Below, piece after piece: positions 12,248 through 55,056 of a stretch of 64,000 nt of DNA. Within the stretch, counting starts at the first letter, position 1, and each line of letters opens with the position of its first letter. Made by a program: the position numbers and the translations under genes. This stretch comes from Anaerococcus ihuae (lineage in GTDB: Bacteria > Bacillota > Clostridia > Tissierellales > Peptoniphilaceae), in assembly GCF_928368155.1 (NCBI RefSeq), contig NZ_CAKMRU010000001.1:1-64000 (forward strand), written 5' to 3'. Under the pieces are notes generated by a model, which did not search any database, was not told where the DNA came from, and was given only the letters and a program-made list of their open reading frames with translations.

Positions 12248-13192
12248 ATGAAAAAGATTTTCAAAATATTTGGAACATTGTTTTTGAGTTTTATAATTAT
12301 TGCAATTCTTGGTATGGGATATTTTACAGGAAATGAAACTTTTAAAGGACTAACAAATATAATGCCAAGAGAGAAAACTGTAGAAAATATTTCTTTATAT
12401 AAGGATGAATATCAAAAATTTGCTGAAGATAAAAAAATAAAAGAAATTAAAATTAAATCTTCAAAATTTGACCACGAAATTCCTGGTATATTTGTTAAAA
12501 ATAAAAATACCAATAATATTGCAGTAATGGTTCATGGTCTAGGCGGGACAAAATATTCAATGTCCAGTCAAGGCCAAGGACTTTATGATTTGGGATTTTC
12601 CCTATTAATCTTTGATCAAAGAAATTCAGGTGAAAATTTAGAAAAATATTCTACATTTGGAGTGTTAGAATCTTATGATTGTCTAGATTATTTAAAATAT
12701 GCAAAAAAGATTGTTAAAAAGGACGGGAAAATTCTTTTATATGGAGAATCCTATGGAGGGGCAAGCTCAATAATAGCTGCAAGTCGTGACGATAGCCTTA
12801 TAGATTATATGATTTTAGATTGTCCAGTTTCCGATTCCAACGAATTTTCCGATAAGGTTTTTGAAAAGATAGAAAAAAATCAAGGAGTACCACAAGCTTT
12901 GATGAAATTTACAGGAAATATTTTCTTAAAAACAAAACTTGGTTTTACCTTAAAAGAAATAGATACAAGAAAATGGCTTGAAAATACAAAAATTAATTGT
13001 CCAGTTTTAATAATAAATTCAAATTCAGATAAAGTTACCCCATATCACATGGGAGAAGATATATATAAAGCTATAAATTCCAATAAAAAAGAAATTTATA
13101 CCTGCAAAGAAATTCCACACACAAAATTTGCAGAAAATGAACCAGAAAATTTTAAAAATCTTATTTCTAAATTTTTAAAAAAATATAAATAA
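12248..13192 (+). CDS. Membrane-anchored alpha/beta hydrolase
   Basis: Serine hydrolase of the alpha/beta fold, 314 residues. An N-terminal hydrophobic segment (residues 5-25, IFGTLFLSFIIIAILGMGYF) suggests a signal anchor with the catalytic domain outside. The catalytic triad is visible as Ser in YGESYGGASS (nucleophile elbow), Asp in NSNSDKVTP and His in IPHTKFAEN. The oxyanion region is MVHGLGGTK. A GGGGGA ribosome binding site precedes the ATG. Substrate unknown; esterase, lipase or peptidase activity is possible. It stands alone between the arginine operon and a convergent DUF3783 gene. Confidence 0.85.
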   Translation: MKKIFKIFGTLFLSFIIIAILGMGYFTGNETFKGLTNIMPREKTVENISLYKDEYQKFAEDKKIKEIKIKSSKFDHEIPGIFVKNKNTNNIAVMVHGLGGTKYSMSSQGQGLYDLGFSLLIFDQRNSGENLEKYSTFGVLESYDCLDYLKYAKKIVKKDGKILLYGESYGGASSIIAASRDDSLIDYMILDCPVSDSNEFSDKVFEKIEKNQGVPQALMKFTGNIFLKTKLGFTLKEIDTRKWLENTKINCPVLIINSNSDKVTPYHMGEDIYKAINSNKKEIYTCKEIPHTKFAENEPENFKNLISKFLKKYK

Positions 13193-13194
13193 AA

Positions 13195-13218
13195 ACTCTT
13201 ACAAATTAATGTAAGAGT
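13195..13218. terminator. Terminator hairpin, left copy flanking repeat element A
   Basis: ACTCTTACA and TGTAAGAGT form a 9-bp hairpin. The preceding AAAAA supplies a T tract only for the minus strand, so this copy can end transcription of the convergent DUF3783 gene but not of the hydrolase. A near-identical hairpin follows at 13389-13412. Confidence 0.7.
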
Positions 13219-13388
13219 CAGAGCGTAGACAAAGTCAGTTTAGTAATTCATTATTAATTTGAAAATAAAATTATGCTACAACCCATCTCGACTAAGTGAG
13301 TGAAACGAACGCACGGAGAGATCTCATGAGATTTCTCGACTCACTACGTTCGTTCGAAATGGGAAAAGTTTAGTTTTTCAACAGTCTG
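13219..13388 (+). mobile_element. Palindromic MITE-like repeat, copy A
   Basis: About 170 bp between two copies of the same terminator hairpin. It begins CAGAGCGTAGACAAAGTC and ends CAACAGTCTG, imperfect inverted ends. The core is a long imperfect palindrome from CCCATCTCGACTAAGTGAG through GAGATCTCATGAGAT to TTCGTTCGAAATGGG. The reverse complement of the 25.47-kb copy matches it over nearly its full length apart from one extra block. It has no coding capacity. Confidence 0.75.
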
Positions 13389-13412
13389 ACTCTTACAAAG
13401 TAATGTAAGAGT
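13389..13412. terminator. Terminator hairpin, right copy flanking repeat element A
   Basis: ACTCTTACA and TGTAAGAGT again form a 9-bp stem, followed by TTTT on the plus strand, so this copy can terminate the upstream hydrolase transcript. Only one loop base differs from the left copy (AAATTAA versus AAAGTAA context). Confidence 0.7.
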
Positions 13413-13417
13413 TTTGA

Positions 13418-13972
13418 TTATAAATTTTCCACCAAATTTTTAATTTTATCCCTAAATTCTTTGGCAACTTTTATATCAAAATCTTCTCCTGCTGTTTGGA
13501 AATAGTGGTTTAATTCTTTTACAGATTTCGCTATTTCTGGATTTTCTTCTCCAGTTTCTTTTTTTATTTTGCTAGCCTTTTCTAAATAGGAATTGATTTC
13601 TTCAACAATTTGCATGGTTTTGTGTTCTTGGTCGTTTTCTTCAAGTAAATATCTTAATGTCCATTTTATATTTGTTGGGGTTATTCCTGCCTTATGGTCT
13701 ATAACTACATTGTTTTCTCTCATTTTATCGATGAAGGCAAACAGATCTTTTTCTTCAAAATCTTTGAAAAATGCAAAGGTGAAATCAAATTCTTCTAAAT
13801 ATTCTCCCTTTGATTCGATTTTTTCAAATCCATCTATTTCTGCAAGATATCCTACCTTTTGATCTACATCTTCCATTCCTATTAGTTTTAATCTTACATT
13901 TTCTTTTTCGCACAAAATTCTTAATTTTTCTTTTTCTATATCATTAGCATTAAATAAAATTATTAAAGCCAT
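13418..13972 (-). CDS. DUF3783-domain protein
   Basis: Cytosolic protein of 184 residues from the chosen start. The segment DFTFAFFKDFEEKDLFAFID followed by HKAGITPTNIKWTLRYLL resembles the DUF3783 family, whose function is unknown. The C-terminal half is charged and helical. I chose the ATG at 13972 because AAAGGAG lies 6 bases upstream; a longer reading frame to 14011 would run through this site. It converges on the hydrolase gene, with repeat element A and its two hairpins between them. Confidence 0.75.
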   Translation of the reverse strand: MALIILFNANDIEKEKLRILCEKENVRLKLIGMEDVDQKVGYLAEIDGFEKIESKGEYLEEFDFTFAFFKDFEEKDLFAFIDKMRENNVVIDHKAGITPTNIKWTLRYLLEENDQEHKTMQIVEEINSYLEKASKIKKETGEENPEIAKSVKELNHYFQTAGEDFDIKVAKEFRDKIKNLVENL

Positions 13973-14072
13973 AAAATCTCCTTTTCTTTTTAATATTATT
14001 ACTATACCCAAAAAGATATTTTACTCACTTTTGGGTATAATATAATATAGAGAAAAATTTGGGGAGATATTT

Positions 14073-14611: not shown

Positions 14612-15037
14612 ATGATAAAAATTATAAAGGGGGAAGATATGAATAAATTTAAAGATATTATTAAACTTTTGTTTACACTCTTTGGATCTTGTATGGGATT
14701 TTTCATTGGTGAAATGGATATTTTTGTTTATACTCTCCTTTGCTTTGTGATTTGTGACTATATAAGTGGGATTATAAGGGCAGGATTTGAAAGAAAACTT
14801 TCGTCAAAGGTTGGATTTAAAGGAATTTTAAAAAAGATTATGATTTTTATAATAGTTGGAATTGCAAATCTTTGCGATAAAAATTTGATACAAAATGAGG
14901 CTATGATAAGAAGTGCCATAATATTTTTTTATATAGCAAATGAGGGACTTTCTATCCTTGAAAACTCCCTTGCCATTGGCCTTCCAATTCCAGAGAAGTT
15001 AAAAATTTTATTAGAACAATTTAAGGAGGAAAAATGA
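14612..15037 (+). CDS. Phage-type holin (phage_holin_4/TcdE-like)
   Basis: Small membrane protein of the phage lysis holin family that includes TcdE-like proteins. After a short N-terminus there are about three to four hydrophobic segments (LLFTLFGSCMGFFIGE, VYTLLCFVICDYISGII, MIFIIVGIANL, SAIIFFYIANEGLSIL), with the family motif CDYISGIIRAG. Two starts are each preceded by a good ribosome binding site: ATG 14612 (AGGAGG, 9 bases) and ATG 14639 (AAAGGGGG, 5 bases). The longer form adds a basic stretch, MIKIIKGED. The stop overlaps the endolysin ATG in ATGA. Confidence 0.87.
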   Translation: MIKIIKGEDMNKFKDIIKLLFTLFGSCMGFFIGEMDIFVYTLLCFVICDYISGIIRAGFERKLSSKVGFKGILKKIMIFIIVGIANLCDKNLIQNEAMIRSAIIFFYIANEGLSILENSLAIGLPIPEKLKILLEQFKEEK

Positions 15038-15843
15038 CTTATAGCAAATTAGTTGATGATATAATTTTATCCCCAAACCACAGTGGAAAAAGAAGTGAAA
15101 AAATAAGTAAAATTGCCATTCACCATACTGGTGGAATTATTTGTGGAAGAGATTTAGCAAGGATTTTTCTTCCAAAATCAAGAGGGGCTTCTGCAAATTA
15201 TAATCTAGGATCAGACGGGATTATTGTTCTTGGAGTTTATGAAGAAAACAGAGCATGGACAACATCTTCATCATGGTGCGATAATCGTGCGATAACAATC
15301 GAAGTTGGAAATTCTACAAGAGGAGCAAATTGGGAAATTTCAGATTTTGTTTTAGATAGGTTGATTGATTTGGTGACAGATATTTGTATGCGAAATAATA
15401 TTTATCCTTGTACCTATACGGGAGATAAAGAAGGAGTTTTGCAAAAACACGAGTGGTATGCCAACACAAATTGCCCAGGGCCTTACCTTGGTAAAAAATT
15501 TTCCTATATTGCAAACGAAGTCAACAAAAGGCTTAGGAAAAATGCTAGAAAAAATTCAAATTTATATAGAGTTAGAAAATCTTTTAAAGATATTAAAAGT
15601 CAAAAAGGAGCTTTTAAATCCATAGAAAATGCAAAAAGATGCGCTGATAAATATAAAGAAAAAGTATTTGATGATATGGGAAATGAAATTTATCCAAGAA
15701 AAAATAACAAATCAATTGACACACTTGCAAGAGAAGTTATAAGAGGTGATTGGGGAAATGGAAATGAGAGGAAAAAAAGATTGACCCAGGCAGGATATGA
15801 TTATTATGCTGTGCAAAGAAGGGTTAATCAGATTTTAAGCTAG
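15034..15843 (+). CDS. N-acetylmuramoyl-L-alanine amidase endolysin with Cpl-7-like C-terminus
   Basis: Peptidoglycan amidase of the Amidase_2/PGRP fold. Zinc ligands are visible as His in AIHHTGG and in LQKHEWYANTNCPGPYLG, where the Cys of NCPG is also typical. A linker with weak repeats (about residues 165-225) leads to a C-terminal motif DTLAREVIRGDWGNGNERKK that matches Cpl-7/CW_7 wall-binding repeats. No signal peptide is present, so export depends on the overlapping holin. Together they form a complete two-gene lysis cassette, but no phage structural genes are near. Confidence 0.9.
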   Translation: MTYSKLVDDIILSPNHSGKRSEKISKIAIHHTGGIICGRDLARIFLPKSRGASANYNLGSDGIIVLGVYEENRAWTTSSSWCDNRAITIEVGNSTRGANWEISDFVLDRLIDLVTDICMRNNIYPCTYTGDKEGVLQKHEWYANTNCPGPYLGKKFSYIANEVNKRLRKNARKNSNLYRVRKSFKDIKSQKGAFKSIENAKRCADKYKEKVFDDMGNEIYPRKNNKSIDTLAREVIRGDWGNGNERKKRLTQAGYDYYAVQRRVNQILS

Positions 15844-25450: not shown

Positions 25451-25455
25451 TTTAG

Positions 25456-25469
25456 CCTTCTTATGAAGG
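25456..25469 (+). terminator. Terminator hairpin arm-loop-arm, left copy flanking element B
   Basis: CCTTCTTATGAAGG forms a short stem with loop TTAT. It is not followed by a T tract here, and its near copy with the T tract lies beyond element B at 25728. Confidence 0.55.
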
Positions 25470-25727
25470 GTCAGACTGTTGACGAACTAAAATTTTTCCA
25501 TTTCGACCGAGTGCAACGAGCGGAGAAATCTCATGAGATCTCTCCATGCGTTCGTTTCACTCACACTAAAACACGTTTGCTTAGCAAACTTCTTCGTGCT
25601 TTCGCACTTAGTTTTAGGGATGATTGTGCCAAATCAGGGCACAATCATCTAGTCGAGATGGTACGTAGCGTAATTTTTATTTTAAAATAAAATATTATCT
25701 ACATTCATACTTTGTCAACAGTCTGAA
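25470..25727 (-). mobile_element. Palindromic MITE-like repeat, copy B (with extra internal block)
   Basis: About 258 bp with inverted ends GTCAGACTGTTGAC and GTCAACAGTCTGA. Read on the minus strand it aligns with element A: GACAAAGT, AAAATAAAAATTACGCTAC, CCATCTCGACTA, GTGAGTGAAACGAACGCA, GAGAGATCTCATGAGATTTC and GTCGAAATGG. Between CTCGACTA and GTGAGTG it holds about 85 extra bases made of two palindromes, GATGATTGTGCC/GGCACAATCATC and a CTAAAAC/GTTTTAG pair. No coding capacity is credible. Confidence 0.75.
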
Positions 25728-25752
25728 CCTTTTTTATGAAGGCTATTTTTGT
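25728..25752 (+). terminator. Terminator hairpin, right copy flanking element B
   Basis: CCTTTTTTATGAAGGCTATTTTT restores the T tract missing after the left copy. The upstream isochorismatase-like transcript would now extend through element B before stopping here. Confidence 0.5.
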
Positions 25753-37758: not shown

Positions 37759-37869
37759 AAAGTTGTCATAATAACAATAAATAAATTTAAAATATAAGTT
37801 AATATATTATTAAACTGACCTTGTCTAAGCTCTGATGAGAATTTCAAAATATAGAAAAGGATAAAATTT

Positions 37870-54702: not shown

Positions 54703-55056
54703 AGGCTCTTTTGAGCACGGAGCGCATACAAATTCTCAAGCACGAATATCTAACTCCAAAAATTGATGATTTCTAAATTTTAAAATTCTAAAATCGCAAA
54801 CTCGCTAACGCGATTACAGATAAATAGCTTAAAATTGTGCCAGTGGCACGATTTTAATATTTATCCCTCGGAATAAAACGAAGAATTAAAATTTAATTGA
54901 AGTTAATTGATTTAATAAATTATCATTGCTTTAAATTTTAGAGTGCGATTTTTGACGAATTTTTAAATTTGAAATCAAATCAATTTTTTCCGTATGATAT
55001 TCTTAGCATGAGAATTTATATACCTTTTCTTCAATTTGAAGCTCTTTATAAGCCTT
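54703..55056. other. Intergenic region with two palindromes
   Basis: AATCGC/GCGATT (54792-54815) and AAAATTGTGCCAGTGG with CACGATTTT (54831-54855) are hairpins. The second resembles the GATTGTGCC/GGCACAATC palindrome of element B, and GCACGGAGCG near 54715 resembles the GCACGGA subunit of copy C. This may be a decayed member of the repeat family. No coding region is supported. Confidence 0.4.

Follow-up and report, generated by a model that had tools for sequence, protein, structure and literature searches.

The 170-bp palindromic element situated between two convergent genes of the window (the whole stretch of DNA that was analysed, 64,000 nucleotides) was inserted into a single transcription terminator, the hairpin of which was duplicated as a whole. 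Repeats centred on hairpins also flank other copies, the element ends are common with those of IS1182-family elements, and hairpin duplication is linked to one clade of IS1182-family transposases. Judged from these sequence comparisons, the window element apparently is a MITE of the hairpin-duplicating IS1182 subgroup, which would have been mobilised in trans. To the complete account, in which an IS1182 transposase of the CAGRCTGT type moves the MITE into palindromes by joining at the 5' hairpin foot and gap repair duplicates the hairpin, we assign a probability of about 85%. The likely mover, a transposase of the IS1182 family, and a second MITE family (MITE B) are additions to an earlier note on this DNA, which had described the window site from its sequence.

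The window site and the orthologous loci of relatives

The 24-bp hairpins on both sides of the element (ACTCTTACA..TGTAAGAGT; see Table 1 for coordinates) are identical at 23 of 24 positions, and the mismatch is one loop base, as described earlier. With up to 3 mismatches allowed, the hairpin pattern has one extra match in the 1.83-Mb genome, which carries 2 mismatches. A terminator scan of positions 13150-13450 gave exactly two terminator-like sites, against a mean of 0.1 for shuffled sequences. The left hairpin copy was assigned to the minus strand and the right one to the plus strand, which confirms the T-tract asymmetry proposed in the earlier note, with the left copy serving the minus gene and the right copy the plus gene. 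Both neighbouring genes, which converge on the element, probably retain a hairpin with a U tract and hence their stop signals; in the cell, transcription would be expected to terminate there. The 170-bp element as RNA folds better than shuffled sequences (z = -2.76), and so does the 218-bp unit of hairpin, element and hairpin as DNA (z = -4.33). No ORF of at least 60 amino acids occurs within the 170-bp element, and the region 12900-13700 gave no match to a known RNA family in Rfam at E values up to 1. Near the site, at 14612-15843, two ORFs resemble a phage-type holin and an N-acetylmuramoyl-L-alanine amidase when their translations are read by eye.

Table 1. Coordinates of the insertions in the window and of the genes flanking the first of them
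Feature	Position	Strand	Remark
314-aa ORF	12248..13192	+	stops 26 bp short of element
Left terminator hairpin copy	13195..13218		minus-gene terminator; same as the only hairpin in relative G024
MITE A, short form, 170 bp	13219..13388	+	78 blastn matches in own genome
Left element end CAGAGCGTAGACAAAG	13219..13234	+	matches right ends of IS1182 elements, read inward
Right element end, inward CAGACTGTTGAAAAAC	13373..13388	-	matches left ends of IS1182 elements
Right terminator hairpin copy	13389..13412		plus-gene terminator; one loop base differs from left copy
197-aa ORF	13418..14011	-	its end 29 bp past element
Left hairpin copy, second insertion	25454..25471		flank sequence
MITE A long form, 254 bp	25472..25725	-	copy A16n; own-genome match
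Right hairpin copy, second insertion, decayed	25726..25744		flank sequence
One-end remnant of a MITE A	37786..37835	-	outside the counts
MITE B, long decayed copy	54728..55029	-	flanking hairpins no longer clear; outside the counts

The earlier note had also suggested a look for empty sites in related strains. The window locus was read in seven relatives, three of which (G024, G036 and G035) carry a single hairpin and lack the element. The order in G024 is gene, A tract, hairpin, T-rich flank and gene, and its hairpin has exactly the sequence of the left copy. The hairpin of G036 and G035 is preceded by a different upstream sequence and has two substitutions in G035. The stretches printed for G011, G037, G010 and G021 contain neither hairpin nor element. 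Two unrelated adjacent terminators at the window site are ruled out by the 23/24 identity of the hairpins together with the single hairpin of the relatives, and two independent terminators without the element, the arrangement that the earlier note had named as evidence against an insertion, are absent from every relative stretch read.

The locus of the second insertion (25472-25725) was also found empty, with a single hairpin in three of six relatives (G035, G010 and G024). The same long MITE A is present in G011, and in G036 a MITE B occupies the hairpin. A third terminator harbors MITE B in the own genome and MITE A in G011. At two sites MITE A and MITE B thus occupy a shared terminator, which indicates that different elements struck one hairpin in different species. 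The orthologous terminator of G037 (L345/L350, corresponding to 25454-25744) has a different, smaller palindrome within the hairpin.

Copies of MITE A and MITE B and their flanking hairpins

The blastn matches of MITE A in the own 1.83-Mb genome include the 13 short copies A1-A13, in which both ends are present, as well as a long form (ca. 254 bp) and copies split by other insertion sequences. MITE B, of ca. 197 bp, was found by an end-motif search and has the ends of MITE A with a different interior. The sequence TCAGACTGTTGAC, by which the earlier note had defined the element ends, is indeed an end type but one of two only, the inward ends being CAGAGCGTAGACAAAG and CAGACTGTTGAAAAAC. The elements are short, multi-copy and devoid of coding capacity, share their ends with IS1182 elements and are flanked by a target site duplication, as is characteristic of MITEs. 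Among 130 genomes of the taxonomic family, 26 have matches to MITE A; beyond the genus, these cover little more than the core. The long form contains an extra block of ca. 85 bp (25565-25649 in the window; ACTAAAAC..TTTTAGGG followed by a hairpin), which occurs at the same position in the long copies read and so was probably spread together with the element. Another insertion sequence of ca. 1.6-1.7 kb interrupts the MITE A core at AGATCTCT (G000:C3:68303-70064, C1:1068983-1070828, C2:117-189 and C1:1096396-1096468), with an end sequence shared among several copies. In two relatives the MITE A core is repeated ca. 150-570 bp apart, resembling a small array (G013:C247:352340-353390 and G016:C1:523577-524296).

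The earlier note had proposed to look for duplicated hairpins at other copies. The 54 instances printed include 36 with both ends (24 of type A, 11 of type B and one IS), which were compared with permuted flank pairings; the 18 without a usable end (13 type A, 5 type B) were left out, as were two further matches at C1:1089189 (core only) and C4:50299 (at the edge of a contig). For about 16 own-genome copies the ends were adjusted by hand, by a few bases, before the test, and the permuted pairings used identical ends. In the ungapped flank-repeat test 29 of the 36 copies scored above 99.9% of the permuted pairings. The gapped version was passed by 30 at the 99% level, with A2, A25 and B9 as extra passes, and by 26 at 99.9%. 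When a pass in either version is counted (99.9% level for the ungapped, 99% for the gapped one), 32 of the 36 own-genome copies have repeated flanks, which agrees with the expectation of the note. The copies that passed neither (A4, A8, A16n and B12n) all look decayed; the ortholog of A16n in relative G011 is flanked by a perfect 18-bp hairpin duplication. By eye, paired hairpins were found at 8 of 10 MITE A loci of relatives, L108 and L131 being those without.

The flanking hairpins differ from locus to locus in the own genome, each being repeated on both sides of its copy. Their median scores are 7 (left) and 6.5 (right), as compared to 3 at random positions. The hairpin score alone is weak: a copy exceeds the 99th percentile of random positions at 12 of 36 sites. 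On the basis of the window alone, the hairpins could be regarded as parts of the element, since they look like matched ends of one palindrome, in which case the 218-bp unit with its terminator-like ends would be the mobile entity. This has next to no probability, because the hairpin is private to each copy and relatives retain it without the element; hairpins as element parts are refuted by these observations. The same two lines of evidence, private hairpins elsewhere and empty sites, support the history outlined in the earlier note, namely insertion at one terminator with duplication of the whole hairpin.

The geometry was evaluated for sites with a repeat score of at least 10, which are 53 of the 66 family and own-genome sites. 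The centre of the repeat is that of the best hairpin at 44 of the 53 and lies at most one base away from it at 49, and at four sites (A11, A14n, A17n and B6) the best hairpin was another one. For 18 IS copies from elsewhere in the phylum (see below) the centres coincide exactly in 16 and are at most one base apart in 17. The outer bases of the repeat are A..T at 40 of the 53 sites. Repeat length averages 21.2 (sd 3.0) over these sites, with an overall range of 14-35 bp. At the 49 centred sites it correlates moderately with the length of the best hairpin (Spearman 0.45, p = 0.001), which is blurred by the A and T tracts, as well as with the span delimited by the outermost G-C pair (Spearman 0.54, p = 6e-5). 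The clustering of repeat lengths and the only moderate correlation would also be expected of a transposase with a fixed stagger of ca. 20 bp, for which terminators are struck because of their A+T richness or as a tolerated location. Such a fixed stagger is improbable in view of exact repeats of 14 to 35 bp among near-identical elements of one genome, and of the agreement of repeat and hairpin centres within one base at nearly all sites of both sets.

Neighbouring genes were found on both sides at 35 own-genome sites, which are convergent in 14 cases, tandem in 21 and divergent in none. The median of 50 distances from the element to the upstream stop codon is 27.5 bp, with ORFs of 80 aa or more taken into account. 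The combination of a left A tract and a right T tract occurs at 28 of the 45 IS sites and at 20 of 29 sites in the own genome; at random window positions its frequency is 2.6%. The prevalence of terminators just past stop codons and the lack of divergent sites could indicate that insertion is guided by termination itself, through RNA polymerase that has paused or through the hairpin in the nascent RNA. We consider this unlikely, since four of the 45 IS sites (L208, L264, L265 and L292) have neither tract, and since IS1272, of the same family, also targets palindromes within genes according to the available text of PMC4923244 and PMC5678879. Thus, the targeting of terminators suggested in the earlier note holds insofar as mostly terminators are hit, but the palindrome, rather than termination, seems to be the target. 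At the 21 tandem sites the hairpin copy expected to terminate was no better conserved than the other (p = 0.79).

The IS1182-family transposase and two modes of insertion

A match to the end motif led to an IS1182-family transposase encoded at G000:C2:73163-74690 in the own genome (locus L060). The protein scores 436.3 bits with NF033551 (cut-off 270) and contains the Pfam domains DUF772, DDE_Tnp_1_6 and DDE_Tnp_1; a sequence search up to E = 1 gave no solved structure. The contig search with the transposase sequence yielded 2 loci. L060 is the sole IS1182 match in the own genome and is flanked by an exact 19-bp hairpin repeat. Compared with the copy in G016, its right end lacks ca. 70 bp, including the usual end sequence. 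The early right end combined with an exact repeat suggests use of a cryptic end; alternatively, the active mover is located elsewhere. No intact IS1182 mover was seen in the own genome, which is 94% complete. This would fit with the MITEs being moved by some other transposase, having only the end sequence in common with IS1182 elements. That is very unlikely, as the MITEs match IS1182 elements at both of their ends and the same unusual hairpin duplication results from both.

The ends of IS copies in relatives match those of the MITEs, with CAGACTGTTGACAAAG on the left and GGGTTTGTCGACGCTCTG or GGGTTTGTCTTCACTCTG on the right. From the family 36 IS loci were fetched, and after omission of 6 without a recognised end, 30 copies from six other genomes were scored. 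Hairpin repeats of 14-30 bp are present at 27 of these, exact in all but one (25/26), the copies without a repeat being L199, L207 and L221. L199 (G052:C8:20200-22600) is flanked by two different hairpins, as expected from recombination between copies at different terminators. The wider phylum set consisted of 60 fetched loci, of which 51 were scored (omitted were 2 without a found end and 7 from G212, G216 and G295). Exact hairpin repeats, 17-35 bp in length, flank all 18 copies with matching ends in this set; these copies stem from six genomes belonging to other families. Named plasmid copies, one of which is annotated as ISEfa7, show a hairpin repeat in 6 of 7 cases (7 fetched among 25 records listed of 321 matched). 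The repeat is absent from the Exiguobacterium plasmid copy and from the decayed A. vaginalis copy L103.

Other IS1182 copies show no such duplication. A repeat of at least 8 is lacking at 27 copies in eleven genomes, ten of which have elements with GGGG-type ends, the other being G346, and the flanks of 6 further copies, from two genomes, have no more than 4 matching bases. In an unrooted tree of 26 transposases, those that duplicate hairpins, 13 in number, form one side of a branch with support values of 99/98, and 0 of 500 label shuffles matched this separation. The non-duplicating transposases need two changes, because the long-branched G346 adjoins the duplicating clade; G446 and G293 are also long-branched. 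When inspected by eye, many GGGG-ended copies (L272-L277, L287-L289 and L302-L304) lie between A-rich and T-rich flanks with no repeat, as would be expected after replacement of the hairpin.

Proposed mechanism and related systems

In the mechanism that we propose, the MITE would be a non-autonomous transposon mobilised in trans by an IS1182 transposase, from the subgroup with element starts of CAGRCTGT or a close variant. The targets would be DNA palindromes, in practice mainly intrinsic terminators, which may be recognised as an extruded cruciform or a single-strand hairpin. On both strands, the 3' ends of the element would be joined at the 5' hairpin foot. Such joining would create a stagger with the length of the hairpin, so that gap repair would copy the whole stem-loop on both sides. 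The expected product is a hairpin-element-hairpin arrangement in which the original tracts end up on the outer sides, the A tract next to the left copy and the T tract next to the right one. For DDE transposases, target duplication is usually described as characteristic and near-constant in length. Here, its size varies between copies from 14 to 35 bp, is hairpin-centred and does so across several families of one phylum. We lean towards the broader view that the duplicating clade reads the shape and not the sequence of the target and acts symmetrically at both feet of an extruded DNA hairpin, so that the target rather than the enzyme sets the size of the duplication. Duplicated terminators would keep the genes on both sides terminated, a safe harbour that is self-made. 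The GGGG-ended, IS1272-type clade would use the other foot of the same structure, by which the hairpin is replaced. As the tree distinguishes transposases that duplicate the hairpin from those that do not, it becomes possible to look for the protein features that determine which foot is attacked.

Related systems include IS1272 and TnSha1 of staphylococci, for which the available text of PMC4923244 reports that the hairpin is deleted or replaced with no target duplication. Similar to the elements studied here, these encode an IS1182-family transposase with no stop codon inside the element and have hairpin targets, several of which are confirmed terminators (PMC4923244 and PMC5678879, as far as available). 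Unlike IS1272 and TnSha1, the elements described here duplicate the whole hairpin and have MITE derivatives. The IS1272-type outcome, loss of the hairpin and no duplication, does not apply to the 27 of 30 and 18 of 18 IS copies in which the hairpin was duplicated. That some IS1182 members have palindromic targets is credited to Siguier 2015 in the accessible parts of PMC4923244 and PMC5678879. In the IS1272 model of Wan 2017, hairpin duplication is drawn as a hypothetical branch, pathway b (PMC5678879, in the text available), whereas here it is the observed pattern of one transposase clade. Within the literature searched, as far as its text was accessible and with ISfinder entries outside the search, no paper was found that documents hairpin duplication by an IS1182 element; the portions of PMC10969869 and PMC2267715 at hand contain no further case of it. 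Thus, hairpin targeting by IS1182 is known and whole-hairpin duplication was proposed; new is that it appears to be the usual outcome for one transposase clade. A drawn pathway, undocumented as far as the literature was searched, herewith becomes an observed pattern. It offers a possible reason for the accumulation of dozens of small repeats directly behind genes, apparently without much damage to termination, and the order hairpin-element-hairpin provides an exact signature for locating such insertions.

Many targets of the YPAL repeats are said to overlap terminators, in work of De Gregorio from 2006. YPAL or RU-2 elements of Yersinia are short palindromic repeats of ca. 168 bp with duplications of 3-26 bp at or beside dyad symmetry, as given in the available text of PMC2229807. 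They may represent a parallel case, by analogy. The host is another one, the inverted repeats are reportedly internal instead of terminal, and no mover is named in that text.

Another counterpart is ISEfa7, an IS1182-like element of Enterococcus faecium. It has the ends CAGACTGTAGACAAAG..TTTTGTCTACAGTCTG and is flanked by a 20-bp direct repeat that contains a terminator hairpin. It differs from the window element in being a full IS and not a MITE, and its transposase is 49% identical to the query transposase.
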